From contig NZ_JAUSVL010000001.1 in assembly GCF_030814695.1 (NCBI RefSeq), positions 558,001 through 622,000 of the forward strand: a stretch of 64,000 nt of DNA. Reading direction: 5' to 3'. The notes under the pieces were generated by a model. That model ran no database searches, was not told where the DNA came from, and saw only the letters and a program-made list of their open reading frames with translations. This DNA is from Oligosphaera ethanolica. GTDB taxonomy: Bacteria > Verrucomicrobiota > Lentisphaeria > Oligosphaerales > Oligosphaeraceae. Positions 1,122 to 62,675 of the stretch are shown here, in pieces (within the stretch, counting starts at the first letter, position 1; the number at the start of each line of letters is the position of its first letter). A program made the position numbers and the translations under genes.

Positions 1122-1270
1122 TGGGGCGAGGACTCACGGACTCATGAGGCATGGTCCCATGAATTGGACCGTGGGGACTTCCGGGACCGCGGGGAATGAC
1201 GCAGTGGACGCAAGGGACTGATTGAGGACCTCTTGGACTTCAGGGACTGATTGCCAATATCTGGGACTCC
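1122..1270. repeat. Degenerate 9-bp GGAC-N5 repeat element, copy A
   Basis: GGAC occurs at 1166, 1175, 1184, 1206, 1215, 1226, 1235, 1244 and 1264, with spacings of 9, 9, 22, 9, 11, 9, 9 and 20. An inverted relative lies at 62228-62358 with the matching spacing order. It is non-coding and sits in the 830-base gap between the GH36 gene and the next gene. Bases 945-1121 show nothing recognisable. Confidence 0.75.
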
Positions 1271-1301
1271 TGAAAACGACGTTTTGCGGCAGGTTGTCGC
1301 A

Positions 1302-1410
1302 GACCAATCCGACCGATCCGACCGATCCGACCGATCAGACCGATCAGACCGATCCGACCGATCAATCAACCGGATATGTCCGATCCGTCCGATCCGTCCG
1401 ATCCGTCCGC
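1302..1410. repeat. 9-bp tandem array (GATCCGACC / GATCAGACC / GATCCGTCC units)
   Basis: About eleven imperfect 9-bp units. The left half is of GAYCNGACC type and the right half of GATCCGTCC type. The array ends in the linker CCGCGATAAAAGACA and runs directly into the hairpin element at 1432. It belongs to the same array family as 24580-25300, 28962-29150 and 39411-39604. Confidence 0.9.
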
Positions 1411-1431
1411 GATAAAAGACAGTCGATCAGA

Positions 1432-1618
1432 CAGATCGGCCAAGTTCGGCCCGAAGGGCCGGACCATGCGTAACCCCGGGTGAGGCGCCCGGAGGGCGAC
1501 GCAACCCGGGGTATGACAACAACATAGAGTTGCGCCCGGAGGGCGCCACATTGGCTAGGCACGTCCCTTCCCACCGCGCCGGAGAGAGGCATGCCTAGTA
1601 TCCAGTAGCAATCACAGA
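1432..1618 (+). repeat. Dispersed hairpin element, family 1 (degenerate copy)
   Basis: It carries the hairpins GGCCCGAAGGGCC, then ACCCCGGGT paired with ACCCGGGGT around GGCGCCCGGAGGGCG, then GCGCCCGGAGGGCGC. This is the core of the 4135-4502 element. Its right end is a decayed form of the terminal repeat seen at 4480-4502. The left half of the element is absent and replaced by the 9-bp array. Confidence 0.85.
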
Positions 1619-1634
1619 CCAATAACGTGACGAC

Positions 1635-1699
1635 GTAATCGGTCAGCCCTTGACATTGGCTACCTGACTGGCATACAGTACCCACCGCTGACCGATTAC
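1635..1699. mobile_element. 65-bp mini-element with 13-bp perfect inverted ends
   Basis: GTAATCGGTCAGC at 1635-1647 is repeated in perfect inversion at 1687-1699. The same end sequence terminates the transposable element at 4135-4502 and other dispersed repeats here. No target duplication is visible, so it may be a deletion derivative or a solo end pair. It encloses a promoter-like sequence for the gene at 1776. Confidence 0.6.
1650..1679 (+). promoter_or_regulatory. Candidate sigma70-type promoter inside the 65-bp element
   Basis: TTGACA at 1650-1655 is a perfect -35 box. TACAGT at 1674-1679 is a weak -10 box with 18-bp spacing. Transcription would start near 1686 and give a leader of about 90 bases before the gene at 1776. 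This is a prediction from hexamer matches only. Confidence 0.4.
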
Positions 1700-1775
1700 G
1701 AACTCAGCAACGACGTGGCGGATATAATTGCGGACAGACCCAACCTGATCGGATAGCTTAAAAGGAAAGTACACC

Positions 1776-2696
1776 ATGGGTGTTATGCGTTTTACGACCC
1801 TGGCGATGGAGAACATCGGCGGCGGTGCCGGCACTGCGATCGTCATCCAATGTCCCAATGGCAAGACCTACATGGTCGACACGGGTCTTGGCGGCTGGGA
1901 CAAGGATACCTGGGCGCAGCAGTACAATTGCGGTCGCGACGCCATCGCGCCCTTCCTGGCCGCGCGCGGAATCACCAAGCTGGACGGGCTCATTGTCAGC
2001 CATGCGCACGCCGACCACTTCGGCGGCTTCGTCTGGATGTGGAATCACTTCCCCATTGACGAACTCATGGACCCGGGATACACGCTGCCGGCGCGCCTCA
2101 ATGCCAACTACACTCAAGAACTGCAGTTCTACGACGAATTACGCGCCGCCTATTGCGCCGCCCCCGGACACGCCTACCGCAAAATCCTCGCGGGCGACAC
2201 CCTCGCCTGGGACGACGAGCTCAAGGTCGACATTCTCTCGCCGCCAGCAGCATACTACGACGAAATCCCGGACGAGGCCGCCCCCGGCCGGATTGCGCAG
2301 GACAAGCCCTGGCATCACCTCCTCAACGCCAACGCCACGGCCCTGCGCATCACCCATGGCAAAATCAGCGTCTTTATTGTCGGTGACATCCAGAAGGACT
2401 ATCTCCTCCACTATCTCTGGCCACGCCTGACGCCCGAGCAGAAAAAATGCAGCATCTGCGTGCTTCCTGCCCACGGCATCCACAGCTCTGCCGAGGAAGT
2501 CGCCGCCACCCGCCCGCAAGTCGCCATCGCCTCCCTCTGGATGCCCTGGGCCGCTAAAATACCGGCCAACAAACTCTACGGCGAAGCCGGCGCCTGCGTC
2601 TATGCCACCGGCGCCCACGGGAATATCGAAATCGTCTCCAACGGCGACAACTACCAAGTCGTCTGCAGTAAAACTTTTCTGCCGGAAGACAACTAA
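1776..2696 (+). CDS. Metallo-beta-lactamase-fold hydrolase (ComEC C-terminal-like)
   Basis: A 306-residue soluble protein. The signature HAHADHFGG gives the metal ligands H76, H78, D80 and H81. Further ligands are plausible at VGDIQ (D204) and PAHGIH (H233). The layout matches stand-alone relatives of the ComEC metallohydrolase domain, without the ComEC membrane part. The substrate is not known; a phosphodiester or small metabolite is possible. The ATG at 1776 follows an AAGGAAAG site at good distance. The gene is monocistronic, flanked by repeats on the left and a 240-base gap on the right. A promoter-bearing mini-element ends 76 bases upstream. Confidence 0.8.
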   Translation: MGVMRFTTLAMENIGGGAGTAIVIQCPNGKTYMVDTGLGGWDKDTWAQQYNCGRDAIAPFLAARGITKLDGLIVSHAHADHFGGFVWMWNHFPIDELMDPGYTLPARLNANYTQELQFYDELRAAYCAAPGHAYRKILAGDTLAWDDELKVDILSPPAAYYDEIPDEAAPGRIAQDKPWHHLLNANATALRITHGKISVFIVGDIQKDYLLHYLWPRLTPEQKKCSICVLPAHGIHSSAEEVAATRPQVAIASLWMPWAAKIPANKLYGEAGACVYATGAHGNIEIVSNGDNYQVVCSKTFLPEDN

Positions 2697-2935
2697 ACGC
2701 CCGGGACTCTGATGACAAAAAAACGCCGGGCGCCGCCCGCATTGGCGTAGGCCTCATGTGTGAACTCAGTGTACCTGCCCAGCGGCGACACTTGTTGTAT
2801 GCGCATTCAGGTCGCCGCGACAACACGCGGCATGACGTGATTTCCGCTGGCGTATTGACAAGCGCCGGGAGAACCCTGACAGTATCGACTGGGCAATCAC
2901 ACCTTCGTCACCATAAGCAGAAAAGGACCACGACC

Positions 2936-3934
2936 ATGCGCCAACCCGATTTTGACCAGTTGCTGAAAGTCCTGGCCCGTGAAGTGCCCGACCGACCGAC
3001 CCTCTTCGAATTTTTTCTGAACGGGCCGTTGTACGAGCATTACTGCGGTTACAAACTCACTGCCGGCAATGCCGCCCAGTCCCTGGCCGACGCTTTCGCC
3101 GCCGCCGGTTACGACTATTGCACCCTCACCGGCTATGGCATCGATTTTCCCCGTGGCGAGTTTCACCGCGAAAAATCCATTTCGTTGAATGAAGGAGCGA
3201 TGATCGGCAGCTGGGAGGACTTCGACCGCTATCCCTGGCCGGACGTCGCCGTCGCGAACTACTCGCCGCTGGCGACGACCAAGCTCCGCGACGGCATGAA
3301 GATCATCGCCCACGGCCCCTGCGGCGTGCTGGAAAATCTCATTCGCCTGGTCGGCTACGACCGGCTGTGTCTGCTGCTGGCGGATGACCCCAGTTTAGTC
3401 AAGGCCGTGACGGATCGAATCGGAGCCATTCTGCTCCTGCATTATGAACGCTGCCTGGAATTTCCGCAGGTCGGCGCCTGCATCTCGAATGACGACTGGG
3501 GTTTTCAGCAGCAGCCCATGTTGAGTCCAAACGACATGCGCGCGTACATCATCCCCTGGCACGTCAAAATTGTCAACACGATCCATGCGGCCGGGCTCCC
3601 AGCCATCCTCCATTCCTGTGGCAACGCATTCACCTGCGGCCTGATTGACGACGTCATCGATATCTGTCATTTCGACGCGCGCCATTCCTTCGAGGACAAA
3701 ATCCTGCCGGTGGAAGAAGCCTATGAACGCTACCACCAACGCATCGCCACCCTCGGCGGCATCGACCTGGATTTTCTCTGCCGAAGCTCGCCCGCGAAAA
3801 TCCGCCAGCGCTCGCTGGCCATGCTCGAACGAGCAGCAGCGCGCGGCGGCTACGCCCTGGGCTCGGGCAATAGCATCCCGGAGTACGTCCCCATGGAAAA
3901 CTACTTCGCCATGGTCGGAGCCGTGACCGGCTGA
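2936..3934 (+). CDS. Uroporphyrinogen decarboxylase (URO-D) family protein
   Basis: 332 residues with a URO-D/MtaA-type barrel. Features include an ISNDDWGFQQQPMLSP loop and ILHSCGN near residues 225-230, which resembles the zinc-site region of cobamide-dependent methyltransferases of this superfamily. No haem genes lie nearby, so a role in haem synthesis is unlikely. Divergent URO-D proteins of this kind are common in Lentisphaerota and related anaerobes, often next to glycan or methylamine genes; their substrates are mostly unknown. The ATG at 2936 is chosen because AAAAGGA lies eight bases upstream; the longer open frame to 2756 has no ribosome site. Confidence 0.75.
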   Translation: MRQPDFDQLLKVLAREVPDRPTLFEFFLNGPLYEHYCGYKLTAGNAAQSLADAFAAAGYDYCTLTGYGIDFPRGEFHREKSISLNEGAMIGSWEDFDRYPWPDVAVANYSPLATTKLRDGMKIIAHGPCGVLENLIRLVGYDRLCLLLADDPSLVKAVTDRIGAILLLHYERCLEFPQVGACISNDDWGFQQQPMLSPNDMRAYIIPWHVKIVNTIHAAGLPAILHSCGNAFTCGLIDDVIDICHFDARHSFEDKILPVEEAYERYHQRIATLGGIDLDFLCRSSPAKIRQRSLAMLERAAARGGYALGSGNSIPEYVPMENYFAMVGAVTG

Positions 3935-4134
3935 CGCCACGCCGCAACCCAACCCAGCGGCAAGTGTCCTCTGCCCCCCAAAGGCATCTCCTGTCTTCTC
4001 TGAGTCTCGGAGCAACACCCTTTTTGCGCCCTCCCAGCGGATTCTCTTTCGTCTTCCTTGGCAATGGCCCACCGCCCCCACGCGACGCGCTGAACCGCTG
4101 TCAAGTCTTCTTACCAATGCAGCGTTATCCGGCG

Positions 4135-4502
4135 GTAATCAGTCAGTGATTGATAACCAAAACTGTGGTGCCTCTACGAGGCACTGTCTGTTGACAGGCT
4201 GCGTCCCCAGGCTAAAGCCTGGGGTTAAGCATGGTTATGCGCCTACGGCGCAAATACATGGATATTGAATGATGGTTGTTTTTGGCCCAGATCGGACAAG
4301 GCAAGTCGTCAGATCGGCCAAGTTCGGCCCGGAGGGCCGCACCATGCATAGCCCCGGGTGAGGCGCCCGGAGGGCGCCGCAACCCGGGGTGTGACAGCAA
4401 CTTGGAATTGCGCCCGGAGGGCGCCACATTGGCGAGGCACGCGCGTCTCACGCGCCAGCCAGAGGCATGCCGTGCATCCGTTACCAATCACTGACCGATT
4501 AC
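4135..4502. mobile_element. 368-bp non-autonomous transposable element (MITE-like), family 1 full copy
   Basis: The left end at 4135-4157 and the right end at 4480-4502 are inverted repeats matching at 21 of 23 positions (outermost bases GTAATC). The element is flanked by a perfect 8-bp direct repeat ATCCGGCG at 4127-4134 and 4503-4510, as left by transposition. It has no transposase gene. Internally it is a chain of hairpins: GTGCCTCTACGAGGCAC, CCCAGGCTAAAGCCTGGG, GCGCCTACGGCGC, GGCCCGGAGGGCC, a CCCCGGGT/ACCCGGGGT stem and GCGCCCGGAGGGCGC. Close relatives lie at 33520-33882 and, truncated, at 1432, 29158 and 45757. Bases 3935-4126 and 4511-4636 show nothing else. Confidence 0.9.
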
Positions 4503-4636
4503 ATCCGGCGCGGTAACAGCTGGCATATTGGCGCGGCAATGGCAAATTCATGTATCGCCAAGCGGCCTTGGCCGCAATACTCCTATCTCAGCCACATTAC
4601 TCCGCTCTGCCACCCGCCATGTGAGGACTCCTTGCC

Positions 4637-6994
4637 ATGCTCAGCGTATCCCAGCTTACCACACCACCGCCGGAATGCTCGCCAGCCTATTTCTGGCAGA
4701 TCAACGGCCAGGTGGACATACCCATGCTCATTGACGAACTGCGGGCCATGCACGCCAATGGCCTCAACGCGGTCTGTCTGCATCCCTTTCCTGACGAATT
4801 TCGCCCGAAGATGATGCCCGCACGAGTGAGCATCCCCTACTTGTCTCCCGAGTGGTTGGCGATGACGCGTGCCCTCTGCGAAGAATGCCGGCGCCTGGGC
4901 ATGAACTACTGGCTGTACGACGAAGGCGGCTGGCCGTCAGGCGGCGCCGGCGGGCAAGTGTGGCAAAACGCCAAAGACAAAGAAGCCGTGCAGCAGCGCG
5001 TGTACAAGCTGGAAAATGGCCAGGCCGTCCTCAAAATCCTCGGTGCCAACCCGCAGGTCGCCGCGCCCTACCCCGACGTGCTCAACCCGGCCGTCACCCG
5101 CGAATTTCTGCGCATCACCCACGAGCAATACGCAAAGTACCTCGGCGAATTTTTCGGCCGCGAAATCACCTTTGTCTTCACCGACGAGCCCGGCACCGCC
5201 CATTGTTCGCCGGGGACGCTGGGCAGCACCGCCGACTTCATCGCGCAATTCCGCAAACTCAAGGGCTACGACGTCACGCCTTTTTTGCCCGCGTTGCTCG
5301 CCGTGGAGAAAGGCGACGAGCCCAGCGAGGTCACGACTGCGCGCATGGACTACCACGACGTGCTCTCGACCCTCTTTGCCCGGCGCTTTCTGGCGCCCAT
5401 CCGCCGCTGGTGCCGGCGCCACGGGCTCCTCTCAGGCGGCCACTTTTCCGGCGAGGACACCCCCGCCGGCAACCGCTTTGGCACCTACGGCAACATCATG
5501 CAGTCCCTGCGCATGCTCGACGTCCCCGGCGTGGACGCCATCTGGCGGCAGCTCTTTCCCGGCCAGCGGGTCCATCCCTTCCCCAAATACGCATCCAGCG
5601 CGGCGCATCAAAATGGCAATCGCTTCGCCCTCGCCGAAATTTTCGCCGTGTACGGCAATGCGCTGTCGCCGGCGGAGATGCGCTGGCTGGTGGACTACAT
5701 GCTCGTGCGCGGCATCAACCTGATAGTCCCGAGCAAGATCTCCACCTGCCATCGCGAGCATTTCATGTCGGGCATCCGTCCGCATTTTGGTCGGGTCAAC
5801 CCCCTGTGGCCCTACATGAAAGAATACCATCAGTACATTGAACGCAGCTGCCATCTCTTGTCCCTCGGCAAACCACATTGCCCCAGCGCCGTCTATTTCG
5901 ACATCCGCTCCATCTGGGCCGGCGGCACAGCCATGGCCGAGGCCATCCGCCGACACGAAGACGTCGCCAAAGCCATGAGCGAAAAACAGTGCGACTTCGA
6001 CTACCTCGACGACGACGCCCTCGCCAAGGCCCGCGTCAAAAACGGCTCGCTGCTGGTCGGCAAGATGCGCTACCGCTGCCTAGTCATCCCCACGGCAGGC
6101 CATATGAGCGATGCGGCGAAAAACACGCTTCAGGCATTCACCCAGGCCGGCGGGACCGTCCTCGACGCCGCCAGCGCCGACAAGGCCGAACGCAGCGCGA
6201 TCATCAGTCCCGACAATCCCGCCATCCGCGTCTGCAAGCGCGTCGTTGGCAGCAACGCCATCTATTTTGTGGTCAATGAAAGCGCGGAAGCCCAGTCGTT
6301 CGCCATCACGCTGCCCGAGAAAAAGGCCGTGAGCCACTACAGCCCCGAAGACAACCGCGTCACCGCGCTGACCAGCGACCAGGGCCGCTTCTCCTGGCAC
6401 TTGCCTGCGTATTCGGCGACCTTCTTCATCACCGGCGCCATCGCCGGCGTCGGCAAGCCCCGCCACCCAACACCAGCGGAAGTAGCCCCGTCTGTCTTAC
6501 AGCGCCTGGACGGCGCCTGGACCATCCAGGCCCGCCGGCGCATCTATCCTGGCACCGACGACTTTGTCTGCGAAGACCTGCACGAAGCGCCACGCCCATG
6601 CGCGCTCGGCGATTGGCGGCCTGTCCTCGGCAACGACTTCAGCGGCGAGGCGACCTATCGCTGCACCTTCACCCTCGCTCAGGCACAGCGCATTATCCTC
6701 GATCTCGGCGATGTCGGCTATGCGTGCAAGGTCGCCGTCAACGGCAAGGCCCTGCCGCCAAAATTCCTGCCGCCATACTGTTTTGATATCAGCGCCGTCG
6801 TGCGAGCGGGCCGCAACGACTTGGATGTCACCGTCGCCAATACTCTCGCCAACGCGCTCGCACCAGACGCCGTGCTCAAACAATGGGCTGAAAAATGGCC
6901 CCTCCAATACGAAGACAAACAACGGCCATTCGAAAACGAACACCACGAAAGCGGTCTCTTCGGTCCAGTGACTCTCCTGGAGGATTACGACTAA
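4637..6994 (+). CDS. Glycoside hydrolase, GH106-like (alpha-L-rhamnosidase type)
   Basis: 785 residues without a signal peptide. The N-terminal two thirds form a barrel with YDEGGWPSGG near residue 93 and an acidic FVFTDEPGT loop near 178, patterns typical of GH106 and related unclassified families. A C-terminal beta-sandwich starts at DGAWTIQARRR near residue 624 and resembles the jelly-roll sugar-binding domain fused to many such enzymes. The product probably removes rhamnose or a related sugar from oligosaccharides in the cytoplasm. The ATG at 4637 has GTGAGGA about ten bases upstream. The gene begins about 130 bases after the MITE-like element. The exact family and substrate are uncertain. 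Confidence 0.65.
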   Translation: MLSVSQLTTPPPECSPAYFWQINGQVDIPMLIDELRAMHANGLNAVCLHPFPDEFRPKMMPARVSIPYLSPEWLAMTRALCEECRRLGMNYWLYDEGGWPSGGAGGQVWQNAKDKEAVQQRVYKLENGQAVLKILGANPQVAAPYPDVLNPAVTREFLRITHEQYAKYLGEFFGREITFVFTDEPGTAHCSPGTLGSTADFIAQFRKLKGYDVTPFLPALLAVEKGDEPSEVTTARMDYHDVLSTLFARRFLAPIRRWCRRHGLLSGGHFSGEDTPAGNRFGTYGNIMQSLRMLDVPGVDAIWRQLFPGQRVHPFPKYASSAAHQNGNRFALAEIFAVYGNALSPAEMRWLVDYMLVRGINLIVPSKISTCHREHFMSGIRPHFGRVNPLWPYMKEYHQYIERSCHLLSLGKPHCPSAVYFDIRSIWAGGTAMAEAIRRHEDVAKAMSEKQCDFDYLDDDALAKARVKNGSLLVGKMRYRCLVIPTAGHMSDAAKNTLQAFTQAGGTVLDAASADKAERSAIISPDNPAIRVCKRVVGSNAIYFVVNESAEAQSFAITLPEKKAVSHYSPEDNRVTALTSDQGRFSWHLPAYSATFFITGAIAGVGKPRHPTPAEVAPSVLQRLDGAWTIQARRRIYPGTDDFVCEDLHEAPRPCALGDWRPVLGNDFSGEATYRCTFTLAQAQRIILDLGDVGYACKVAVNGKALPPKFLPPYCFDISAVVRAGRNDLDVTVANTLANALAPDAVLKQWAEKWPLQYEDKQRPFENEHHESGLFGPVTLLEDYD

Positions 6995-6999
6995 GGCAT

Positions 7000-7036
7000 G
7001 ATCCGACTGATCCGTCCGATCCGACCGCGGAAAAGA
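7000..7036. repeat. Short 9-bp array remnant
   Basis: Four GATCCGNCN-type units followed by the usual linker GCGGAAAAGAC. It lies just after the GH106-like gene. The rest of 6995-7216 shows no recognisable feature. Confidence 0.7.
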
Positions 7037-7216
7037 CAACCGCTCACCGGTGCCGCCTCCCCCCGGCGCGGACACTTTTCCCAGCAGAAGTTTTCGCATA
7101 TTGCGGCCATCGCCTTATATTACGTGTTCCTCATTGTACCTTGATCCATTCTGTGGACTGCGTGTCCCTGCCTGTATTTACACCCTGAATTGGCGACCTT
7201 AGCCAGCAACAAACGT

Positions 7217-12833: not shown

Positions 12834-12941
12834 GTCCACCTTGTCCACCTTGTCCACCTTGTCCACCTTGTCCACCTTGTCCACCTTGTCCACCTTGTCC
12901 ACCTTGTCCACCTTGTCCACTATGTCCACCATGTCCATCCC
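12834..12941. repeat. 9-bp tandem array GTCCACCTT
   Basis: Nine perfect GTCCACCTT units (12834-12914) are followed by GTCCACTAT, GTCCACCAT and GTCCATCCC. The last units contain the two candidate ATG starts of the next gene. Because 9 is a multiple of 3, the array stays open in every frame on both strands. Bases 12721-12833 show nothing else. Confidence 0.95.
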
Positions 12942-23388: not shown

Positions 23389-24579
23389 ATGATGACCCAA
23401 GCCGAAATCCAGCAGGCATTGCAGAAACGCCCCGCACTTCCCTGGCGCGCCGAGCCGTTGCTCGGCAGCATCTACGGCCAGGAGGAAATTGACGCGGCCG
23501 TTGCCGCCATCCGCGAGGCCATGGATGTCAGCAAGGGCTTCGGCTTCTCCGCATCGCCCATTCCCGAGTTTGAACGCGCTTTCGCCGATTACACCGGCAC
23601 AGCCGACGCCGTCGCCGTCAACAGCGCCGGCCCGGGCATTGACATCGTCATGCGGGCACTCAAGCTGCAACCGGGCGACGAAGTCATCGTGCCCTCCATC
23701 AACTACCAGGCCGCGCCGCTGGCCGTGCTGGGCGCCGGTGGCAAAGTCGTCTGGGGCGAAGCCGACCCCGTCACGTACATGCTCGACCCCGCCGACGTCG
23801 AACGCAAAATCACCAATCGCACCCGCGCCATCTTCCCCGTGCACATCCACGGGCTCTGCGCACCGATGGACGACTATCTGGCCATCGCCGCAAAACATCC
23901 CCACCCCGTCTACGGCCCGCCAAAAGTCATCGGCGACGCCGCCCGTGCCTGTGGTGGCTCCTATCGCGGCACCAAGATCGGCAAAAAAGGCTGGGCGACC
24001 ATCTACTCCTTCCACACCATGAAGAACATGACCACCCTCGGCGAGGGCGGCATGATTGCCACCGATGATCTCGAACTGGCCGCCTACGCCCGCTCGGTAC
24101 GCATGTACGGCAGTGGCGTCGAAGCCTGGGGCACCTCCAATGTCATGACCAAAGTGCAGGCCGCCGTCGGGCTCGTCCAGCTGAGCAAACTCGACAGCTT
24201 CATCGCCGGTCGCCGCCGCGTCGCCCAGGAGCGCAATCGCCTCCTGCAGGGCCTGCCCGGCGTCACCCTGCCTCACGAACCCGCCGACTGCGAGCACAGC
24301 TACTACCTTTACACCCTCACTCTCAAGGACGACTGGGCCGGCGAAAAACGCAACCAACTCATCAAGATGATGGACCAGGACTACGGCGTCGGCTGCGTCG
24401 TCGCTAACCCACCAGCATACTTGGCGCGGCGTATCCTCGCCGAAAACTTCGGCAAGACCACGCCACTCTCTGAAGCATACGCCGCAAAAATGATCAGCAT
24501 TTCCCTCCACCCCAGCATGACCAGCGATGACAATAAGTACATCGCCGCCGCCTTCATCACCTGCACCCAAAAACTCTGA
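23389..24579 (+). CDS. DegT/DnrJ/EryC1/StrS-family aminotransferase
   Basis: 396 residues. PLP-dependent transamination of a keto-sugar is the usual role in this family. The PLP lysine is K212 in YSFHTMKNMTTLGEGGMI, and IGDAARACGGSYRG matches the DAAxxxG PLP-phosphate loop. The ATG at 23389 has AAGGA eight bases upstream. No nucleotide-sugar or LPS gene lies next to it, so the pathway is open. Similar isolated members occur in cyclitol and amino-sugar metabolism. A 9-bp satellite begins right after the stop codon. Confidence 0.85.
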   Translation: MMTQAEIQQALQKRPALPWRAEPLLGSIYGQEEIDAAVAAIREAMDVSKGFGFSASPIPEFERAFADYTGTADAVAVNSAGPGIDIVMRALKLQPGDEVIVPSINYQAAPLAVLGAGGKVVWGEADPVTYMLDPADVERKITNRTRAIFPVHIHGLCAPMDDYLAIAAKHPHPVYGPPKVIGDAARACGGSYRGTKIGKKGWATIYSFHTMKNMTTLGEGGMIATDDLELAAYARSVRMYGSGVEAWGTSNVMTKVQAAVGLVQLSKLDSFIAGRRRVAQERNRLLQGLPGVTLPHEPADCEHSYYLYTLTLKDDWAGEKRNQLIKMMDQDYGVGCVVANPPAYLARRILAENFGKTTPLSEAYAAKMISISLHPSMTSDDNKYIAAAFITCTQKL

Positions 24580-25300
24580 TCAGACCAATCATCCGACGGA
24601 TTGTCTGACGGATCATCCGACCGATCAGACCGATCAGACCGATCAAATCGACGATCCGACGGATCAGACCGATCCGACCGATCAAATCGACGATCCGTCC
24701 GATCCGTCCGATCCGTCCGATCAGTCCGCGAAGAAGACAGAAGACAAAAGACAGACGATCCGACCGATCCGACCGATCCGACCGATCAAATCGACGATCC
24801 GTCCGATCCGTCCGATCCGTCCGATCAGTCCGCGAAGAAGACAGAAGACAAAAGACAGACGATCCGACCGATCCGACCGATCCGACCGATCAAATCGACG
24901 ATCCGTCCGATCCGTCCGATCCGTCCGATCCGTCCGCGAAGAAGACAGAAGACAAAAGACAGACGATCCGACCGATCCGACCGATCCGACCGATCAAATC
25001 GACGATCCGTCCGATCCGTCCGATCCGTCCGATCAGTCCGCGAAGAAGACAGAAGACAAAAGACAGACGATCCGACCGATCCGACCGATCCGACCGATCA
25101 AATCGACGATCCGTCCGATCCGTCCGATCCGTCCGATCCGTCCGCGAAGAAGACAGAAGACAAAAGACAGACGATCCGACCGATCCGACCGATCCGACCG
25201 ATCCGTCCGATCAAATCGACGATCCGTCCGATCCGTCCGATCCGTCCGATCCGTCCGCGAAGAAAACAGAAGACAGACGATCCGACGGATCAGACCGCTC
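24580..25300. repeat. 720-bp satellite: 9-bp units in a 104-bp higher-order repeat
   Basis: Nine-base units (GATCCGACC, GATCAGACC, GATCCGTCC) are arranged in a larger block: linker GAAGAAGACAGAAGACAAAA, then GATCCGACC units, then GATCAAATCGAC, then GATCCGTCC units. The linker recurs at 24730, 24834, 24938, 25042 and 25146 (exact 104-bp steps) and at 25259 (113 = 104 + one extra 9-bp unit). All frames are largely open, so long low-complexity reading frames here are not evidence of a gene. The array fills the gap between the aminotransferase and the sugar-acid dehydratase genes. Confidence 0.97.
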
Positions 25301-25353
25301 CGCCTACAAAAACACCACCCCTGCCTCTCCCCCTGCCACTCTCTGGAGAAACC

Positions 25354-27033
25354 ATGAAGAATTCCTGTTCGCAAGCCTGGCTCAAGCCCGGCAGCCGCCA
25401 ATGCCTACTGCGTCGCGCCCTGGTCAAAAGTATGGGCTACACCGACGCCGATTTGGCGCGGCCCATCGTCGGCGTCATCAACACCTGGGCAGAAACCAAC
25501 CCCGGCCACTACAACTTCCGGCAGTTGGCCGACGCCGTCAAGCGCGGCGTCTGGGCCGCCGGCGGCTTCCCCCTCGAAGTCAACACCATGTCCATCTGCG
25601 AGGTCTTCTTTGACATCTCCAGCATGATCTTCCGCAATCTGCTGGCCATGACCACCGAGGAGCTCATCAGCCGGCATCCCTTCGACGGCGTGATCCTCCT
25701 GGGCTCCTGCGACAAAAATGTCCCGGCCCAGCTCATGGCGGCGGTTTCCGCCAACAAGCCCATGCTATTCCTCCCCGGCGGCCCCATGCTTCCCGGCAAC
25801 TACAAGGGCGAAAGCCTCGCCTGCGGCACCGACAGCTTCAAGCTGTGGACCCAATACCAGGCCGGTGAAATCGACGAGGAGGAGCTCAAGAACGTCGAAG
25901 GCTGCCTCTATGGCAGCGTCGGCGCCTGTCCCATCATGGGCACCGCCAACAGCATGCAGTGCGCGTCGGAATCCCTCGGGCTGGCCCTGCCCGGCAGCGC
26001 CTCGGCGCTGGCCGTGTCCGCGGAAAAAATGCGCTACGCCGAAGAAAGCGGCCGGCAGATCATGACCCTCATCGAGCGCAGCATCACCCCCAGGGACATC
26101 GTCACCCGCGAGGCCATTGAGAACGCCATCACCGTCCTCATGTCTTCGGGCGGCTCCACCAACCTCATCATTCACCTTACCGCCATCGCGCGCCGCGCCG
26201 GCATCGACCTGCCCCTGAGCGAATTCCAGCGCCTCAGCGACCGCACCCGCGTGCTCGTTGACGTCAAGCCGTCCGGCAAAGGCACCGTCGGCATTGAATT
26301 CCACCAGGCCGGCGGCGTGCCCGTGCTGATGAAGGAGCTCGAAGCGCTACTGCACACCGATGTCATGACGGTCACCGGCAAGACCCTCAAGGAAAATCTC
26401 GCCGCCGTGCCGCCGCCCTACCGGCCGGACGTGATCGTGCCTTTCGACAAGCCCTTCCGCCCCAACGGTGGCATCGCCGTCCTCCACGGCAATCTCGCCC
26501 CGCGCGGCGCAGTCATCAAGCGCTCCGCCTCGTCCATCACCCGCTTCCGTGGCGAAGCACGGGTCTTCGACACCCTCGCCGAGGCGGAAAAGTACCTCCT
26601 CGACGACGACTCCGACATGGACGAGAACAAGGCGATCATTCTCCGCGGCTACGGCCCCAAAGGCGCGCCCGGCATGCCCGAGTTCGGCAATTACCTGCCC
26701 ATACCCCCCAAGATGTACAAACGCGGCGTCACCGACTTCGTCCGCATCACCGACGCGCGCATGAGCGGCGGCGCCTTCGGCACCGTCGTCCTCCACGTCT
26801 GCCCGGAGGCCTGCGCTGGCGGGCCCCTCGGCGCCATCCGCAACGGCGATATCATCAGCATGGACGTCGACGCCGGCACCCTCAATGTCAATCTCAGCGA
26901 CGACGAAATACAGCGGCGCCTGCAAGCCATGACCTTCGCGCCCAAAGAAGAATTCAAGCGCGGTTTCATCCGCCACTATATCGACTCGGTGCAGCAAGCC
27001 GATCTCGGCTGCGATTTCGATTACCTGCAGTAG
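25354..27033 (+). CDS. IlvD/Edd-family dehydratase, sugar-acid type
   Basis: 559 residues. It dehydrates an aldonic acid (for example arabinonate, xylonate or gluconate) using an Fe-S cluster. Visible motifs are LLGSCDKNVPAQLM (near residue 119), VGACPIMGTANSM, SSGGSTNLIIHL and TDARMSGGAFGTVVLH. The TMSICEVF region resembles L-arabinonate/D-xylonate dehydratases more than IlvD of valine synthesis, and no ilv gene is near. The start is the ATG at 25354 with GGAGA upstream. The frame stays open upstream through the satellite, but that extension is low-complexity and unlikely to be translated. It is followed after 60 bases by the gene at 27094. Confidence 0.85.
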   Translation: MKNSCSQAWLKPGSRQCLLRRALVKSMGYTDADLARPIVGVINTWAETNPGHYNFRQLADAVKRGVWAAGGFPLEVNTMSICEVFFDISSMIFRNLLAMTTEELISRHPFDGVILLGSCDKNVPAQLMAAVSANKPMLFLPGGPMLPGNYKGESLACGTDSFKLWTQYQAGEIDEEELKNVEGCLYGSVGACPIMGTANSMQCASESLGLALPGSASALAVSAEKMRYAEESGRQIMTLIERSITPRDIVTREAIENAITVLMSSGGSTNLIIHLTAIARRAGIDLPLSEFQRLSDRTRVLVDVKPSGKGTVGIEFHQAGGVPVLMKELEALLHTDVMTVTGKTLKENLAAVPPPYRPDVIVPFDKPFRPNGGIAVLHGNLAPRGAVIKRSASSITRFRGEARVFDTLAEAEKYLLDDDSDMDENKAIILRGYGPKGAPGMPEFGNYLPIPPKMYKRGVTDFVRITDARMSGGAFGTVVLHVCPEACAGGPLGAIRNGDIISMDVDAGTLNVNLSDDEIQRRLQAMTFAPKEEFKRGFIRHYIDSVQQADLGCDFDYLQ

Positions 27034-28926: not shown

Positions 28927-28961
28927 CAGCACGGCGACAAGACCGATCTTGGGACTAATCA

Positions 28962-29150
28962 TCGGACGGATCGGACCGATCAGACCGATCAGACCGATCA
29001 AGTCGACGATCGGTCTGATCCGTCCGATCCGTCCGATCCGTCCGCGATAACAAGAAAGACGATCAGACCGATCAGACCGCGTAGGGGCGGACCTATGTGT
29101 CCGCCCAAATCCGATCGGTCCGATCCGTCCGATCCGTCCGATCCGTCCGC
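28962..29150. repeat. 9-bp tandem arrays with linkers
   Basis: Two consecutive arrays of GATCAGACC and GATCCGTCC units with GATCAAGTCGAC in the middle. They are separated by CGCGATAACAAGAAAGAC and end with CGCGATATAAGATAGCC. The layout is that of the 24580-25300 array. The second array runs straight into the hairpin element at 29158. Confidence 0.9.
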
Positions 29151-39410: not shown

Positions 39411-39604
39411 TAATCAGACCGATCAGACCGATCAAATCGACGATCCGTCCGATCCGTCCGATCCGTCCGATCAGACCGATCCGTCCGATCAGACCGATCA
39501 GACCGATCAGACCGATCAGACCGATCAGACCGATCAAATCGACGATCCGTCCGATCCGTCCGATCCGTCCGATCCGTCCGATCCGTCCGATCCGTCCGAT
39601 GATC
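39411..39604. repeat. 9-bp tandem arrays in two blocks
   Basis: GATCAGACC units, GATCAAATCGAC and GATCCGTCC units occur twice in succession (with GATCAAATCGAC near 39430 and 39534). The second block is longer. The layout matches the satellite at 24580-25300, but the GAAGAAGACAG linker is missing. Confidence 0.95.
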
Positions 39605-45701: not shown

Positions 45702-45871
45702 ACGATCCGTCCGATCAGACCGATCAGCTGTCTCTTGCCTTATTTCGCGGACCGATCAGCCAGATTCGGCCCAGAGGGCCGCACCATGCATAACCCTGGG
45801 TGAGGTGCCCGAAGGGCGCCGCAACCCAGGGTGGAAGAAACATAAAAGGCCAGCGCCCGGAGGGCGCCACA
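45702..45871 (+). repeat. Short 9-bp array plus truncated family 1 hairpin element
   Basis: Three 9-bp units (45702-45728) precede a truncated family 1 hairpin string (45757-45871) with stems ACCCTGGGT/ACCCAGGGT and GCGCCCGGAGGGCGC. The GGTGCCC to GGGCGCC inner stem keeps a G-T pair. Another small array remnant with the linker CGCGATAAAAAGAC lies near 45950. Nothing else is seen in 45562-45991. Confidence 0.8.
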
Positions 45872-56341: not shown

Positions 56342-56353
56342 AATTTTCACCCC

Positions 56354-56578
56354 GTCCACGCTATCCACCCCGTCCACGCTGTCCACGCTGTCCACCCCGT
56401 CCACGCTGTCCACGCTGTCCACGCTGTCCACGCTGTCCACGCTGTCCACGCTGTCCACGCTGTCCACGCTGTCCACCCCGTCCACGCTGTCCACGCTGTC
56501 CACGCTGTCCACGCTGTCCACGCTGTCCACGCTGTCCACCCCGTCCACGCTGTCCACGCTGTCCACCCCGTCCACGAG
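56354..56578. repeat. 9-bp tandem array GTCCACGCT / GTCCACCCC, 25 units
   Basis: Exactly 25 units of 9 bp. Most are GTCCACGCT, interrupted at irregular intervals by GTCCACCCC, and one begins ATCC. It lies between the carB terminator and the rex promoter. It is a homologue of the array at 12834-12941. Confidence 0.97.
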
Positions 56579-56668: not shown

Positions 56669-56670
56669 AC

Positions 56671-56692
56671 AATCAAGAAAAATTTCTTGATT
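56671..56692. promoter_or_regulatory. 22-bp perfect palindrome, candidate Rex operator
   Basis: AATCAAGAAA, two A bases, then TTTCTTGATT form a perfect inverted repeat 40 bases before the rex start. The same 10-base half-site occurs alone at 56604-56613. The half-site shares T1, G5 and AAA with the usual Rex box TTGTGAAA but differs at three positions, so it is a divergent candidate. It may also form a leader hairpin. Confidence 0.6.
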
Positions 56693-56731
56693 CATCATCC
56701 CCCCTGCTTTTCTTTCAGCGTTGAGGATGCC

Positions 56732-57394: not shown

Positions 57395-57473
57395 TAATCC
57401 TCAGTGCCAATTTTGTCTTTCCCGATATCGTCCCCCCCCAATGTCTTCACGCTAAGCAAAGGATTGCAGAACA

Positions 57474-57965
57474 ATGGAAAAAGAACTCTCCAGCGCGACG
57501 CAGTTTGGCAAGGTCTGTGAAATCCTTGACCGCTACGATCGCGACCCGGCCAAGCTGATTCCCATCCTCCAAGCTGTACAGGAAGAATACCGCTACCTGC
57601 CCGAGGAAATCCTCACCCTGGTGGCAACGTCGCTGAATCTGCCGCCAGCCAAGGTCTACGGCGTGGCGACCTTCTATTCCCATTTTACCCTGACTCCCAA
57701 GGGCAAGCACATCATCCGTCTCTGCGATGGCACGGCCTGCCACGTCAAAGGCTCCACCGCACTGCTTGACGCCATCCGCAAGCGCCTCGGTCTTACTGGC
57801 AAACAGCAGTCCACCCCGGACCTGCTCTTCACCGTCGAAACCGTGTCCTGCCTGGGTGCCTGCGGGCTGGCCCCGGCAGTCGTCATTGACGACAAGGTGC
57901 ACGGTCAGGTTACCCCTGAAAAAGCTGTCGCCCTGGTGGAAGAACTGATCAACGCGGAGGCATGA
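57474..57965 (+). CDS. hydC: Electron-bifurcating hydrogenase subunit HydC (NuoE-like)
   Basis: 163 residues. A thioredoxin-fold [2Fe-2S] protein with ligands in CDGTAC (C-x4-C) and CLGAC (C-x3-C), preceded by the helical N-terminus of NuoE (ILDRYDRDPAKLIPILQAVQEEYRYLPEEIL). It relays electrons between the flavin subunit HydB and the catalytic subunit. AAAGGA precedes the ATG. The stop overlaps or abuts the hydB start. Order C-B-A is typical of trimeric bifurcating hydrogenases of anaerobes. Confidence 0.93.
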   Translation: MEKELSSATQFGKVCEILDRYDRDPAKLIPILQAVQEEYRYLPEEILTLVATSLNLPPAKVYGVATFYSHFTLTPKGKHIIRLCDGTACHVKGSTALLDAIRKRLGLTGKQQSTPDLLFTVETVSCLGACGLAPAVVIDDKVHGQVTPEKAVALVEELINAEA

Positions 57966-57970
57966 AAATA

Positions 57971-59839
57971 ATGAGCAACATCAGCGAACTGAGCAAAGAC
58001 CTGGGCCACCGCGTCATCATCTGCGCCGGCACCGGCTGCGTGGCCAACGGCTCTCTCGAAGTCTACAAGGCCTTCCAAGACGAAATGACCAAGGCCGGCA
58101 TCCATCTCATCGACACCCCCGATCACCGCACCCCCCTCGACGGCGACCAGCAGGGCCTGCACCTCACCAAAAGCGGCTGCCAGGGCTTCTGCCAAATGGG
58201 ACCGCTGGTCACCATCCTGCCCCAAAATATCCTCTACTGCAAGGTCCAAGCCGTCGACGTGCCCGAAATCGTCGCCGAAACGCTCGTCAAAGGCAATATC
58301 CTCGAAAAATATCTCTACCTCGACAAAAGCACCGGCAAACACTGCCACGGCACCGACGATATTCCCTTCTACACCCGCCAAAAACGTACCGTCCTGGCCA
58401 ACTGCGGCCTGATCGACCCCGAAAGCCTCCCCGAATACCTCAAGGAAAACGGCTACGATGCCGCCCGCAAGGCGTTCTGCGACATGACCCCCGCCGAGGT
58501 CTGCAAGCAAATGCTCGAATCCGGCCTCCGCGGCCGCGGCGGCGGGGGCTTCCCCACCGGCCGCAAATGGGAAATGGCCCGCATTCAGCCCGGACCGAAA
58601 AAATTCGTCATCTGCAATGGTGACGAGGGCGATCCCGGAGCCTTTATGGACCGCAGTCTCATGGAAGGCAACCCCCACTGTGTCATCGAAGGCCTGATGA
58701 TCGCCGCCCGCGCCATCGGCGCCGACGAAGGCTACTTCTACGTCCGCACCGAATATCCCCTGGCCGTCAAACGCCTGCGCAAAGCCGTCGAAGACGCCAT
58801 GGCCAAGGGCATCCTCGGCAAGAACATCTTCGGCACCGAACACTGCCTGACCCTCCATGTGATGGAAGGCGCCGGCGCCTTCGTCTGCGGCGAAGAAACC
58901 GCCTTGATCGCCTCCATCGAAGGCAAGCGCGGCATGCCCACGCCCAAACCGCCGTTCCCGGCGCAGTCCGGCCTCTGGGGCAAACCCACCATCATCAACA
59001 ACGTCGAAACACTGGCCACCGTCCCGCTGGTCATTCGCGACGGCGTCGCGGCCTTCCGCGCCGACGGCACCGAACAGGCCCCCGGCACCAAGACCTTCGC
59101 TCTCACCGGCCACGTGCTCAACACCGGCCTCATCGAAGTGCCCATGGGCACCACCCTCCGCCATGTGGTCGAAAGCGTCGGCGGCGGCGTCACCCACGAC
59201 AACGGCGACCCCGGCGGCACCTTCAAGGCCGTGCAGATTGGCGGCCCCTCCGGTGGCTGCCTCACCGCTGAAATGCTCGACACGCCCTTGGACTACGAGT
59301 CGCTGCGCAAAGTCGGCGCGATGGTCGGCTCCGGCGGCCTGGTCGTCATGAACGACCACACCTGCATGGTCCGTATCGCCCACTTCTTCATGCAGTTCAC
59401 CCAGAACGAATCCTGCGGCAAATGCGTGCTCTGCCGCGAAGGCACCAAACAGATGCTCGCACTGCTCGATGATATCATCGAAGGCAATGCCACCGCCGAA
59501 ACCCTCACCCTGCTCGAAGACCTCGCCCACGCCGTCAGCGTCGGCTCGCTCTGCGCCCTCGGCAAGACCGCCCCGAGCCCCGTGCTCTCAACCCTCAAAT
59601 ACTTCCGCGATGAATACGAAGCCCACGTCTTCCATAAGACCTGCCCGGCTAAACAGTGCAAAAATCTGCTCAAGCCCACCATCGACGCCAAAAAATGCGT
59701 CGGCTGCGGCGCCTGCGCCCGCAAATGCCCCGTCGGCGCCATCAGCGGCGAACGCAAAAAACCGCACGTCATCAACGAAGCACTCTGCATCAAATGCGGC
59801 GCCTGCGCCGAAGCCTGCAAATTCAACGCCGTGATCTAA
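57971..59839 (+). CDS. hydB: Electron-bifurcating hydrogenase subunit HydB (NuoF-like)
   Basis: 622 residues from ATG 57971, which has GGAGG ten bases upstream; the ATG at 57962 overlaps the hydC stop and is too close to it. The order is an N-terminal [2Fe-2S] thioredoxin-like domain; NuoF core with FMN site GRGGGGFPTGRKW and NADH loop NGDEGDPGAFMDR; [4Fe-4S] site ESCGKCVLCREGTKQM; and two ferredoxin clusters, CVGCGACARKCPVGAI and CIKCGACAEACKFNAV. It carries NAD(H) and ferredoxin chemistry and is probably the bifurcation subunit. No nuo membrane genes are present, so this is not complex I. Confidence 0.95.
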   Translation: MSNISELSKDLGHRVIICAGTGCVANGSLEVYKAFQDEMTKAGIHLIDTPDHRTPLDGDQQGLHLTKSGCQGFCQMGPLVTILPQNILYCKVQAVDVPEIVAETLVKGNILEKYLYLDKSTGKHCHGTDDIPFYTRQKRTVLANCGLIDPESLPEYLKENGYDAARKAFCDMTPAEVCKQMLESGLRGRGGGGFPTGRKWEMARIQPGPKKFVICNGDEGDPGAFMDRSLMEGNPHCVIEGLMIAARAIGADEGYFYVRTEYPLAVKRLRKAVEDAMAKGILGKNIFGTEHCLTLHVMEGAGAFVCGEETALIASIEGKRGMPTPKPPFPAQSGLWGKPTIINNVETLATVPLVIRDGVAAFRADGTEQAPGTKTFALTGHVLNTGLIEVPMGTTLRHVVESVGGGVTHDNGDPGGTFKAVQIGGPSGGCLTAEMLDTPLDYESLRKVGAMVGSGGLVVMNDHTCMVRIAHFFMQFTQNESCGKCVLCREGTKQMLALLDDIIEGNATAETLTLLEDLAHAVSVGSLCALGKTAPSPVLSTLKYFRDEYEAHVFHKTCPAKQCKNLLKPTIDAKKCVGCGACARKCPVGAISGERKKPHVINEALCIKCGACAEACKFNAVI

Positions 59840-59868
59840 GCTGACGACCAACTCGGAGGAATTTACCC

Positions 59869-61887
59869 ATGGATGAGAAAAAATACCTGACCATCGACGG
59901 CCGTCAGATCGCCATCGAAGGCGAACGCAACGTCCTTGAAGTCGCCCGCAAGGCCGGCATCGAAATCCCCACTTTCTGCTATCATTCGGACCTCAGTGTC
60001 TACGGCGCCTGCCGTCTCTGCCTGGTCGACATCGCGGGCCGCGGCGGCGTCGCCAGCTGCTCAACCGCACCTGAACCCGGCATGGTCGTCAAGACCTCCA
60101 CCAAGCAGATCCGCGCCATGCGCAAGATCGCGGTCGAGCTCCTGCTGGCCGCCCACGACCAGTCCTGCACCACCTGCTACAAGAGTACGTCCTGCAAACT
60201 GCTCGACCTGGCCAACAAGCTCGGCGTCACCAAGGTGCGCTTCAAACCCGGCTTCGAACGCATGCCGCTGGACAACAGCAACCCGTCCCTCCAACGCGAC
60301 AACAATAAATGCATCCTCTGCGGCGATTGCGTACGCATGTGCCAGGAAGTACAGGGCATCGGCGTACTCGATTTTGCCGGCCGCGGCTCGCACTCCCGCG
60401 TCGTCCCGGCCTTCGGCAAAGACCTCAAAAACGTCGAGTGCATCTACTGCGGCCAATGCGCCCGCATCTGCCCCACCGGCGCCATCATTCCCAAGAATGA
60501 AGTGAGCAAGGCTTGGGAGCTGCTGGATAATCCCGAGTACAAAACTGTCGCCACCATCGCCCCAGCCGTCCGCGTCGGCTTCGGCGAGGCTTTCGGCATG
60601 CCCGTCGGCACCGACGTCACCGGCAAGATCACGGCCGCCCTCAAGCAGCTCGGCTTCGTCGCAGTCTTCGACACGACCTTCGCCGCCGACCTCACTGTCG
60701 TCGAGGAGGCCGAGGAATTCCTGCGTCGCGTCACCGCCGGCGGCACCCTGCCCCAGTTCACCTCATGCTGCCCCGCGTGGGTCAAATACGCAGAGCAGTT
60801 CTATCCCGAACTGCTGCCCAATCTGTCATCCTGCCGCTCGCCCCAGGCAATGTTCGGCGCCATGGCCAAAGAAATGCTGCCCAAGCTCTTCGATGTGCCC
60901 CGCGAAAAGGTCAAGATCGTCTCCATCATGCCCTGCACCGCCAAGAAATTCGAAGCCCAGCGCCCCGAATTCAGCCGCGACGGCGACCGCGAAACCGAAG
61001 TGGTCCTCACCACCCAGGAGCTCATCCAGATGATCAAGGGCGCCGGCATCGACTTCAATGCCATTGAGCCCGAGGCCATGGACCTGCCCCTCGGCTTCAA
61101 AACCGGCGCCGGCGTCATCTTCGGCGTCACCGGCGGCGTCAGCGAAGCCGCCCTCCGCTACGCTTACAAGAAGCTCACCGGCAAAAACCTCGCCAACGTC
61201 GAGTTCAAGGAAGTCCGCGGCGACGACGGCTACCGCCGCGCCGAAATCACCATCGGCGACAACAAGGTCCGCGTTGTCGTTGTCCACAGTCTCAGCAACG
61301 CCCACAAGATCTGCGAAGAGGTCAAGGCCGGCAAAGCCGATGTCGATCTGATCGAGGTCATGGCCTGCCCCGGCGGTTGCGTCGGTGGCGCCGGCCAGCC
61401 CGTCTATGTCGGCATGGAAACCCGCAAACAGCGCGCCGCCGGCCTCTACCGCGTCGACCGCAACATGCAGCTGCACAGCTCGGAAGACAACCCCTACGTC
61501 AAAGAGGCCTACCAGAACATCCTCGGCACTCCCAACAGCCACAAGGCCCACGAGCTGCTCCACACCCATTACCAGAGCCGCAAACGCATCCAGGACGAAG
61601 ACGTCCTGGTCAGCGGCAGCGACGAAGCGCAGGAGAAACTGCCCGTCACCATCTGCGTCGGCACCAGCTGCTTCAAACGCGGCTCGCAGCAACTCCTCCA
61701 GGAACTCACTGACTTCCTCAAGGAAAACAACCTGCAGGACCAAGTCGCCATCAAAGCGACCTTCTGCCATGAACGCTGCGACCGCGGACCTACCGCCAAC
61801 GTCGATGGCACCATCATGGAAAAATGCAGCTTCGAAGCCCTCCGCGCCGAAGTCGTCAAACGCCTCCGCAGCGCCGTCGCAAAATAA
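59869..61887 (+). CDS. hydA: Electron-bifurcating [FeFe]-hydrogenase catalytic subunit HydA
   Basis: 672 residues. N-terminal plant-type [2Fe-2S] (YGACRLCLVD); His-Cys [4Fe-4S] (H-x3-C-x2-C-x5-C in HDQSCTTCYKSTSC); two [4Fe-4S] (CILCGDCVRMC, CIYCGQCARIC); H-cluster motifs L1 TSCCPAW, L2 MPCTAKKFE and L3 EVMACPGGC. The second Cys of L1 is the proton-relay residue. A C-terminal thioredoxin-like [2Fe-2S] domain (CVGTSC and CHERC) completes the long form. It evolves H2 from reduced ferredoxin plus NADH. GGAGGA precedes the ATG. Maturases HydE, F and G are not in the window. Confidence 0.97.
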   Translation: MDEKKYLTIDGRQIAIEGERNVLEVARKAGIEIPTFCYHSDLSVYGACRLCLVDIAGRGGVASCSTAPEPGMVVKTSTKQIRAMRKIAVELLLAAHDQSCTTCYKSTSCKLLDLANKLGVTKVRFKPGFERMPLDNSNPSLQRDNNKCILCGDCVRMCQEVQGIGVLDFAGRGSHSRVVPAFGKDLKNVECIYCGQCARICPTGAIIPKNEVSKAWELLDNPEYKTVATIAPAVRVGFGEAFGMPVGTDVTGKITAALKQLGFVAVFDTTFAADLTVVEEAEEFLRRVTAGGTLPQFTSCCPAWVKYAEQFYPELLPNLSSCRSPQAMFGAMAKEMLPKLFDVPREKVKIVSIMPCTAKKFEAQRPEFSRDGDRETEVVLTTQELIQMIKGAGIDFNAIEPEAMDLPLGFKTGAGVIFGVTGGVSEAALRYAYKKLTGKNLANVEFKEVRGDDGYRRAEITIGDNKVRVVVVHSLSNAHKICEEVKAGKADVDLIEVMACPGGCVGGAGQPVYVGMETRKQRAAGLYRVDRNMQLHSSEDNPYVKEAYQNILGTPNSHKAHELLHTHYQSRKRIQDEDVLVSGSDEAQEKLPVTICVGTSCFKRGSQQLLQELTDFLKENNLQDQVAIKATFCHERCDRGPTANVDGTIMEKCSFEALRAEVVKRLRSAVAK

Positions 61888-61985
61888 CCGCAGCGCGCTC
61901 AACACGGCGTGACGCCAATGTCGCCGCGGCGGCACCAACGAAGCACGCCGCGCTCAACGCGTAACGCGGCAAACGCCCCCAACCA

Positions 61986-62032
61986 AGCCGGGCCTACGTC
62001 GGACTCTCCACCCCGACCGGGCCCGGCTTTTT
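61986..62032 (+). terminator. Intrinsic terminator after hydA
   Basis: AGCCGGGC at 61986-61993 pairs with GCCCGGCT at 62021-62028 with a GTCGG/CCGAC inner stem, followed by TTTTT. It ends the hyd transcript. Confidence 0.85.
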
Positions 62033-62100
62033 GCCGCCCCAACACAAATGCTCCCCATCGCCAACCAGGCACCATTGCTCGTGCGCATGACTGGCGCCAG

Positions 62101-62220
62101 CTCTCGACTGCTCTCGACTGCTCTCGACTGCAATCGACCGCTCTCGACTGCTCTCGACTGCTCTCGACTGCTCTCGACTGCAATCGACCGCTCTCGACTG
62201 CTCTCGACTGCTCTCGACTG
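62101..62220. repeat. 10-bp tandem array CTCTCGACTG with 50-bp higher-order repeat
   Basis: Twelve 10-bp units: ten CTCTCGACTG and two CAATCGACCG at units 4 and 9, giving a 50-bp higher-order step. It lies just after the hydA terminator. Unlike the other arrays the period is 10, and there is no GTCC core. Confidence 0.97.
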
Positions 62221-62227
62221 CCGCCGG

Positions 62228-62358
62228 GACGGCGGCGCTCCCAGGAGTCCAAGAAGTCCCCAATCAGTCCCCTAAGTCCAATGCGTCAATCCCCACGGTC
62301 CAGAAAGTCCCCACGGTCCAATCCATGGGATCATGCCTCATGAGTCAGTGAGTCCTCG
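62228..62358. repeat. Degenerate 9-bp GTCC-N5 repeat element, copy B (inverted)
   Basis: GTCC occurs at 62247, 62256, 62267, 62276, 62298, 62307 and 62316 with spacings 9, 11, 9, 22, 9 and 9. This is the inverted counterpart of 1122-1270 and contains the matching runs (CCCACGGTCCAATCCATGGG, CATGCCTCATGAGTC). Confidence 0.8.
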
Positions 62359-62419
62359 TCCCAACGCCGCCGTCAAGCAGTCCCCGGCGTCCAAGCGGTC
62401 CTCAATCACCAGCTGTCTT

Positions 62420-62590
62420 AGGCCGCGCCTTTGGCGCTCAATGCAGGTCGCCCCTACAGGCCGCGCCTTTGGCGCTCAATGCAGGTCGCCCCTACAGGGC
62501 TCCTGGCGGATGGGACTCCTACCCAGGGCGACGCGCCCTGCGGGCGCTTGCCCTGGGCTGTCTTAGGCCGCGCCTTTGACGCTGAAATGC
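62420..62590. repeat. 38-bp direct duplication followed by a family 2 palindrome
   Basis: A 38-bp unit starting AGGCCGCGCCTTTGGCGC occurs at 62420-62457 and 62458-62495. The palindrome CCCAGGGC (62522-62529) and GCCCTGGG (62550-62557) around GCGCCCTGCGGGCGC follows, as at 39921-39990, and then a third copy of the unit's start. Confidence 0.85.
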
Positions 62591-62638
62591 TGCCGGGACG
62601 GCGGCGCTCCTAGGGCCGGGACACTCGGTGCATGCTTA

Positions 62639-62675
62639 TGTCCATATTGTCCATATTGTCCATATTGTCCATAGA
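62639..62675. repeat. Short 9-bp array GTCCATATT, four units
   Basis: GTCCATATT occurs three times, then GTCCATAGA. It is a third sequence variant of the GTCCA-type arrays. Confidence 0.9.

Follow-up and report, generated by a model that had tools for sequence, protein, structure and literature searches.

The intergenic GTCC arrays of Oligosphaera ethanolica are best explained, with a probability of about 0.45, as several dispersed and partly mobile repeat families, in which units have been expanded by slippage and the GTCC core is held by constraint, perhaps through recognition by a protein. The arrays probably belong to small elements of a selfish or dispersed kind, and part of one family is carried by transposable elements. 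The window is the whole 64,000-nucleotide stretch analysed (genome positions 558001–622000), lying on a single contig of 5,729,305 bp. Sampling of the genome covered 2.844 Mb of 5.73 Mb, taken in 20-kb blocks (about half, hereafter the half genome).

Repeats with a 9-bp period are confirmed, by TRF and by direct reading, at all the places where the original prediction had listed them (Table 1). Against shuffled sequence, GTCC-N5-GTCC-N5-GTCC stands far above expectation in the window (59 matches versus 0.01). Across the whole genome, four GTCC spaced at 9 bp match 761 times (54 for the reversed pattern) and GATCCGTCCGATCCGTCC matches 362 times (against 0). Chains of at least four GTCC number 141 at spacing 9 and zero at every other spacing between 5 and 15 (2.84-Mb sample); the same sample holds 233 tandem arrays of period 9. 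Relaxing the chain to at least three GTCC gives 335 chains, grouped into 211 loci, with 199 judged intergenic by a simple codon-usage gene finder built for the analysis. Of the 12 exceptions, some (for example, 12834–12937) resemble false ORF calls made over an array. Loci are denser in the window than in the genome on average: nine, against a mean of 4.7 per 64 kb. Assembly error is an unlikely source of the arrays, given a one-contig genome and the same kind of array in independently assembled relatives.

The uniformity first ascribed to the arrays needs narrowing. The GTCC core is not shared by all of them: 7000–7036, 45702–45728 and several left arms consist mostly of GATC-M-GACC units. 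The strict 9-bp period holds for chains of at least four GTCC; the degenerate stretches 1122–1270 and 62228–62358 are instead copies of an element, B1, with consensus spacings of 8, 9, 11 and more. The array at 24580–25300 does have 9-bp units but is mainly a 104-bp higher-order repeat (TRF). Missed altogether were the division into three families, a foldback arrangement, B1 and elements with inverted ends.

Table 1 Arrays and related features of the window (window coordinates).
Feature	Position	Strand	Evidence or remark
B1 copy, degenerate GTCC-N5 array (GGAC on + strand)	1100..1270	-	nhmmer member of 80-copy alignment
Family A array with arms of (GATCMGACC)n (left) and (GATCCGTCC)n (right)	1302..1410	+	TRF, sequence
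Dispersed module M (GGCCAAGTTCGGCCC...)	1438..1600	+	located 3' to family A arrays
Possible decayed terminal repeat GTAGCAATCACAGACCAATAAC	1603..1626	-	resembles TATCAATCGCTGACCGATTAC, by eye only
Element lacking GTCC arrays; inverted ends of 21 bp, duplication ATCCGGCG of 8 bp	4135..4502	.	end scan
Short family A array: one GTCC, others GACC/GACT	7000..7036	+	TRF, sequence
Family B array (GTCCACCTT)n	12834..12937	+	TRF, 11.6 copies, 96%
Family A array, ~six 104-bp higher-order copies	24580..25302	+	TRF, period 104, score 1130
Two family A arrays, the first a foldback pair	28961..29149	+	TRF, pair scan
Family A array, GACC and GTCC units mixed	39413..39600	+	TRF
Short family A array	45702..45728	+	sequence
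Family B array of (GTCCACGCT)n, including GTCCACCCC variants	56354..56576	+	TRF, 24.8 copies
B1 copy	62239..62363	+	nhmmer; blastn 92% to B1 consensus
GTCC triplet 3' of B1 copy, absent from the original list	62380..62401	+	pattern count
Family B array (GTCCATATT)n	62639..62673	+	TRF, pattern count

Other repeats and motifs lie near these features. An Acido-Lenti-1 RNA (RF01687, 40.3 bits) occupies 62743–62807 (- strand) and is separated from the (GTCCATATT)n array by ~70 bp. A 10-bp tandem array of GCTCTCGACT at 62100–62221 is identical over 50-bp periods, its family recurring in the genome, and 62420–62498 is an exact 38-bp tandem duplication of AGGCCGCGCCTTTGGCGCTCAATGCAGGTCGCCCCTAC. Further dispersed short repeats, AATCTGCGG/T (9–10 bp) and AAGGCGCG (8 bp), are found genome-wide, with AAGGCGCG almost confined to intergenic DNA, and CRISPR-like arrays elsewhere in the genome have period 61 and repeat GAAACACCCCCACATGCGTGGGGAAGAC.

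A rough rule based on unit sequence sorts the loci of the half genome into three families: A (GTCCGATCN), with 81 loci; B (GTCC-[A/C]-variable), with 109; and C (GTCCCATAC-like, GTCC-CATAC-like), with 21. The word shared within family A is GATC-N-GWCC; left arms carry GACC, and GTCC is found mainly in right arms. Left arms of the GACC type, with most units GATC-M-GACC, are seen in the arrays at 24580–25300, 28962–29150, 39411–39604 and 1302–1410. Nearly every position of the family A unit is constant except the ninth; in family B (with C), identity between neighbouring units drops from 0.80 to 0.58 along N5. The families have a common layout, in which a GGAC array is followed by a GTCC array as an inverted pair, occurring in A, B and C and also in other genera. 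Among opposed arrays less than 50 bp apart, this order is found 34 times and the reverse order once (p 2e-9). Module M lies 3' of family A in the same orientation at 14 loci and in the opposite one at 1.

B1 is a dispersed element of ~130 bp inside family B, represented by a 127-bp consensus from 80 aligned copies of the half genome. The consensus has nine GTCC, most of them 9 apart, and a conserved tail (CCATGGGACCATGCCTCATGAGTCC...). Copies diverge from it by 3.4% in GTCC, 28% in N5 and 5.9% in the tail domain. Changes in N5 are transversion-rich and those in the tail transition-rich, so some N5 variation may derive from unit exchange or old subfamilies instead of point mutation. Mixing of this kind is small in the 18 disjoint close pairs compared, which show 7 differences per 28 sites in GTCC, 40 per 35 in N5 and 36 per 41 in the tail (p 5e-5 overall and p 9e-4 for GTCC versus tail alone; 83 differences, with sites treated as independent). 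These alignments provide good but not conclusive evidence that GTCC in B1 is under constraint. In a search of 60 genomes, B1 turned up in 3, all from the genus.

Comparison of loci within the genus brought to light element ends of the form GTAATCGGTCA-NN-CATTGATA. An end scan yields 63 pairs, and 25 of the 57 tested (<1.2 kb) have exact duplications of 7–9 bp at GTAATCGGTCAGCCATTGATA terminal repeats (18 of 8 bp, 5 of 9 bp and 2 of 7 bp). Four elements bearing arrays combine 21-bp inverted ends with exact duplications (genome 1663682, 3403581, 4473986 and 548995). In the last, 849 bp long (548995–549844), there is module M in addition to a family A array, and their order is that seen at 1100–1600 of the window. 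Both ends lie within 700 bp of 16 of 74 B1 copies, 18 of 109 family B loci, 1 of 81 in A and 0 of 21 in C, against 3.75% of random intergenic points; the association is significant for B1 and family B, although the ends are absent at about half of B loci. In families A and C, the terminal repeats are no commoner than in controls matched for length (A, 18.6% versus 22.5%; C, 0% versus 16%), and a single mobile element for all arrays is rejected on this basis. Duplications of transposition were also considered as the origin of the 9-bp step and rejected, being mostly 8 bp.

The GTAA-starting ends and 8-bp duplications of the array-bearing elements are reminiscent of the IS66 family. Nine IS66 transposase matches occur in the genome. 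One such element, examined here, has ends GTAAGCGCTCGCCCAGCCCAT, a GTAAGCG end and a repeated flank; the likeness is in the first bases only and the inner end sequence differs. No autonomous copy with the ends of the array-bearing elements was found, with 1 of the 9 matches examined. Two B1-bearing elements with ends GTAATGCCTCACTCATTGATA encode an IS110-like transposase (379 aa; identified by eye); they lie at genome 58641–60853 and 4384889–4387089 and are 96% identical over 2.2 kb. At the four orthologous sites usable for comparison, three arrays of relative G001 (L174, L178 and L188) are missing from the O. ethanolica genome, and a site with B1 and (GTCCACGGY)n in G002 has a family C array, (GTCCYCTAC)n, in O. 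ethanolica.

Of 99 relatives, 48 have GTCC arrays, as do 84 of 388 members of the phylum, with some of the distant cases possibly coding. Across 27 relatives of the genus and family, hand sums give ~2,400 GTCC matches versus ~72 for GCTC, ~16 for CTCG and ~67 for TGCC. These GTCC matches use other N5 and exceed uncontaminated cores of the same composition at least 30-fold; CCTG and CCGT, the cores of the reverse pattern, are contaminated by GTCC units (GTCCTG, CCGTCC) and are unusable as controls. Some relatives do have 9-bp arrays of another core, (GCTCTAGAA)n, from which it follows that the 9-bp step does not belong to GTCC alone. Both the sharing of period and core and a constraint on the latter gain support from the excess of GTCC over control cores and from its change in B1, several times slower than at neighbouring sites. 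Family A is patchy, in 13 of 289 phylum members, with 54 matches in a single genome of another class. In other phyla, among the matches listed, most are single and often within long ORFs; degenerate GTCCAYNNN-type arrays, coding or non-coding, were seen in Sumerlaeota, Desulfobacterales and Hydrogenedentota (L210, L235, L256, L272). Plasmid and phage records gave no matching array and viral contigs only five short look-alikes, versus one for a shuffled word; a phage or plasmid source was discarded accordingly.

The cyanobacterial STRR form intergenic families across the genome and combine a core that is constant with a base that varies. Their defining trait, a short unit (5–11 nt) at many intergenic places, is shared by the 233 period-9 arrays and 199 of 211 intergenic loci described above; the heptamer unit is not, chains of at least four GTCC being absent at spacing 7 and all at 9 in the 2.84-Mb sample. 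The nearest known kinds are the heptamer repeat families of cyanobacteria, Xanthomonas and Beggiatoaceae. Direct repeats of TAACTGA are described from Beggiatoaceae, Cyanobacteria and Bacteroidetes (MacGregor 2015, PMC4679880), and one proposal for heptamers invokes slippage matched to the contact length of the polymerase (Mrazek 2007, summarised in PMC4679880). The TAACTGA repeats too are intergenic arrays of one word, many per genome, patchy over distant lineages and beside functionally unrelated genes, but they have 7 nt and a fixed sequence and are mostly direct and near start codons. GTCC arrays differ in that their units have 9 nt, GTCC stays constant while N5 varies, arrays often occur as inverted pairs and part of them lie in elements with inverted ends. 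The GGGNATC-type heptamers of Xanthomonas and Nostoc (Rehm 2015, PMC4692102) are likewise families spread between genes throughout the genome, in which the core is fixed and one base varies; they form quadruplexes, prefer four units and are under-represented between divergent genes, whereas the GTCC units of 9 nt have a core free of GGG runs, their arrays show no four-unit preference and B1 is enriched between divergent genes. A 9-nt step, free N5, inverted pairs and element ends are not described for heptamer repeats in the available portions of PMC4679880 and PMC4692102, and a literature search with the literal array sequence returned nothing relevant among the matches listed.

Mobile and structured repeats offer partial parallels. 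Some B1 copies resemble MITEs in that the elements around them end in inverted repeats of 21 bp and are bordered by exact duplications of 8 bp; such ends are missing from most arrays and from families A and C. Eukaryotic foldback elements have inverted arms built of short tandem repeats, a likeness in layout only, with no known link to GTCC arrays. A RAYT/REP link was rejected, none of the five Y1 genes being flanked by intergenic arrays within 1.5 kb. At one of them (L170), where the GGAC pairs look coding, a long 9-bp GCTCCGTCN/GGAC array at genome 2709708–2710377 lies upstream of the Y1 transposase domain gene and is probably coding and collagen-like. CRISPR was excluded by the 9-nt unit, as against a constant 24–48-nt repeat with spacers of similar length.

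Neutral slippage could by itself produce minisatellites if polymerase or repair in this lineage favoured 9-nt steps, with GTCC coming from a few ancestral sequences and the arrays functionless. We consider this possible, though doubtful. Intergenic tandem repeats do cluster at periods 8, 9 and 10 with unrelated units (AAGGCGCG, AATCTGCGG, ACTGCTCTCG), and the (GCTCTAGAA)n arrays of relatives and the heptamer precedent for a polymerase-matched step (PMC4679880) agree with it. So does the no more than modest excess of GTCC pairs spaced 9 bp apart (50, against ~11 for most other spacings) that is left once arrays and B1 are masked. Left unexplained are the slow change of GTCC in B1, the 34:1 layout of inverted pairs and the family-wide excess of GTCC. 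The scarcity of GTCC pairing outside arrays and B1 also weighs against selection by the host, in which a nucleoid or regulatory protein would bind GTCC in 9-bp register and arrays would be kept where useful; this we hold to be unlikely. Constraint on GTCC in B1 is what such selection would predict, and it could account for the location of B1 between divergently oriented genes in 40 of 71 cases (29% expected by length) and for the bias of family A to the lagging strand (64:17 in the half genome, with the origin at ~2.0–2.1 Mb and the terminus at ~5.05 Mb, placed by GC skew). That bias, however, may follow GC skew, and families B and C together lack it (69:61); it is even from origin to terminus, and a KOPS-like polarity was discounted. 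Arrays, moreover, differ or are missing at orthologous sites. B1 copies adjoin unrelated genes, and no Pfam family beyond background is common to the genes with their 5' end towards B1; the absence of a shared flanking family counts against host selection and led us to reject regulation of one gene family.

Inverted pairs could also form stems, and several N5 are complementary between arms, which would suit transcribed RNA hairpins. This is very improbable: N5 are mismatched between arms in several pairs, RNAalifold on the GTCC strand of B1 gives only two four-pair stems with essentially no covariation, and the sole Rfam match in the window is outside the arrays. Collagen-like Gly-X-Y coding (GGA-CNN-NNN) seems to explain a number of the matches from other phyla and is probable at the Y1-associated locus above. 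As an account of the O. ethanolica arrays we give it scarcely any credence: 199 of 211 loci are intergenic instead of lying in a long ORF, and the array-spanning ORF at 24527–25357 has no Pfam match.

Under the preferred reading, of dispersed families with a constrained core, units would grow locally by replication slippage, leaving N5 uniform inside an array and different between arrays. Non-autonomous transposable elements, with ends resembling those of IS66 elements, would carry B1-type copies to new sites through a transposase acting in trans. GTCC would be kept by a trans-acting DNA-binding protein that recognises it, a protein of the host or else the recombinase that mobilises the elements. 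A protein that reads GTCC, one of two mechanisms in the original prediction, is possible, and no candidate was found in this analysis; the other, a copying process with a 9-base step, was not borne out, slippage with dispersal being sufficient. More tentatively, and at less than even odds, the 9-bp GTCC shared by unrelated families of Lentisphaeria may reflect one lineage-specific protein, perhaps a recombinase, reading it in tandem, the arrays serving as a multimeric platform in which N5 is free.

Simple repeats with long units have been described in bacteria mainly for 7-nt units, and an accepted mechanism is lacking. The present account is apparently the first description of the main intergenic repeats in a poorly studied group. 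Hundreds of loci and homologous copies in one genome permit a direct comparison of core and spacer rates, in which the core is seen to resist change. The choice between a slippage product and a binding platform thereby becomes testable.
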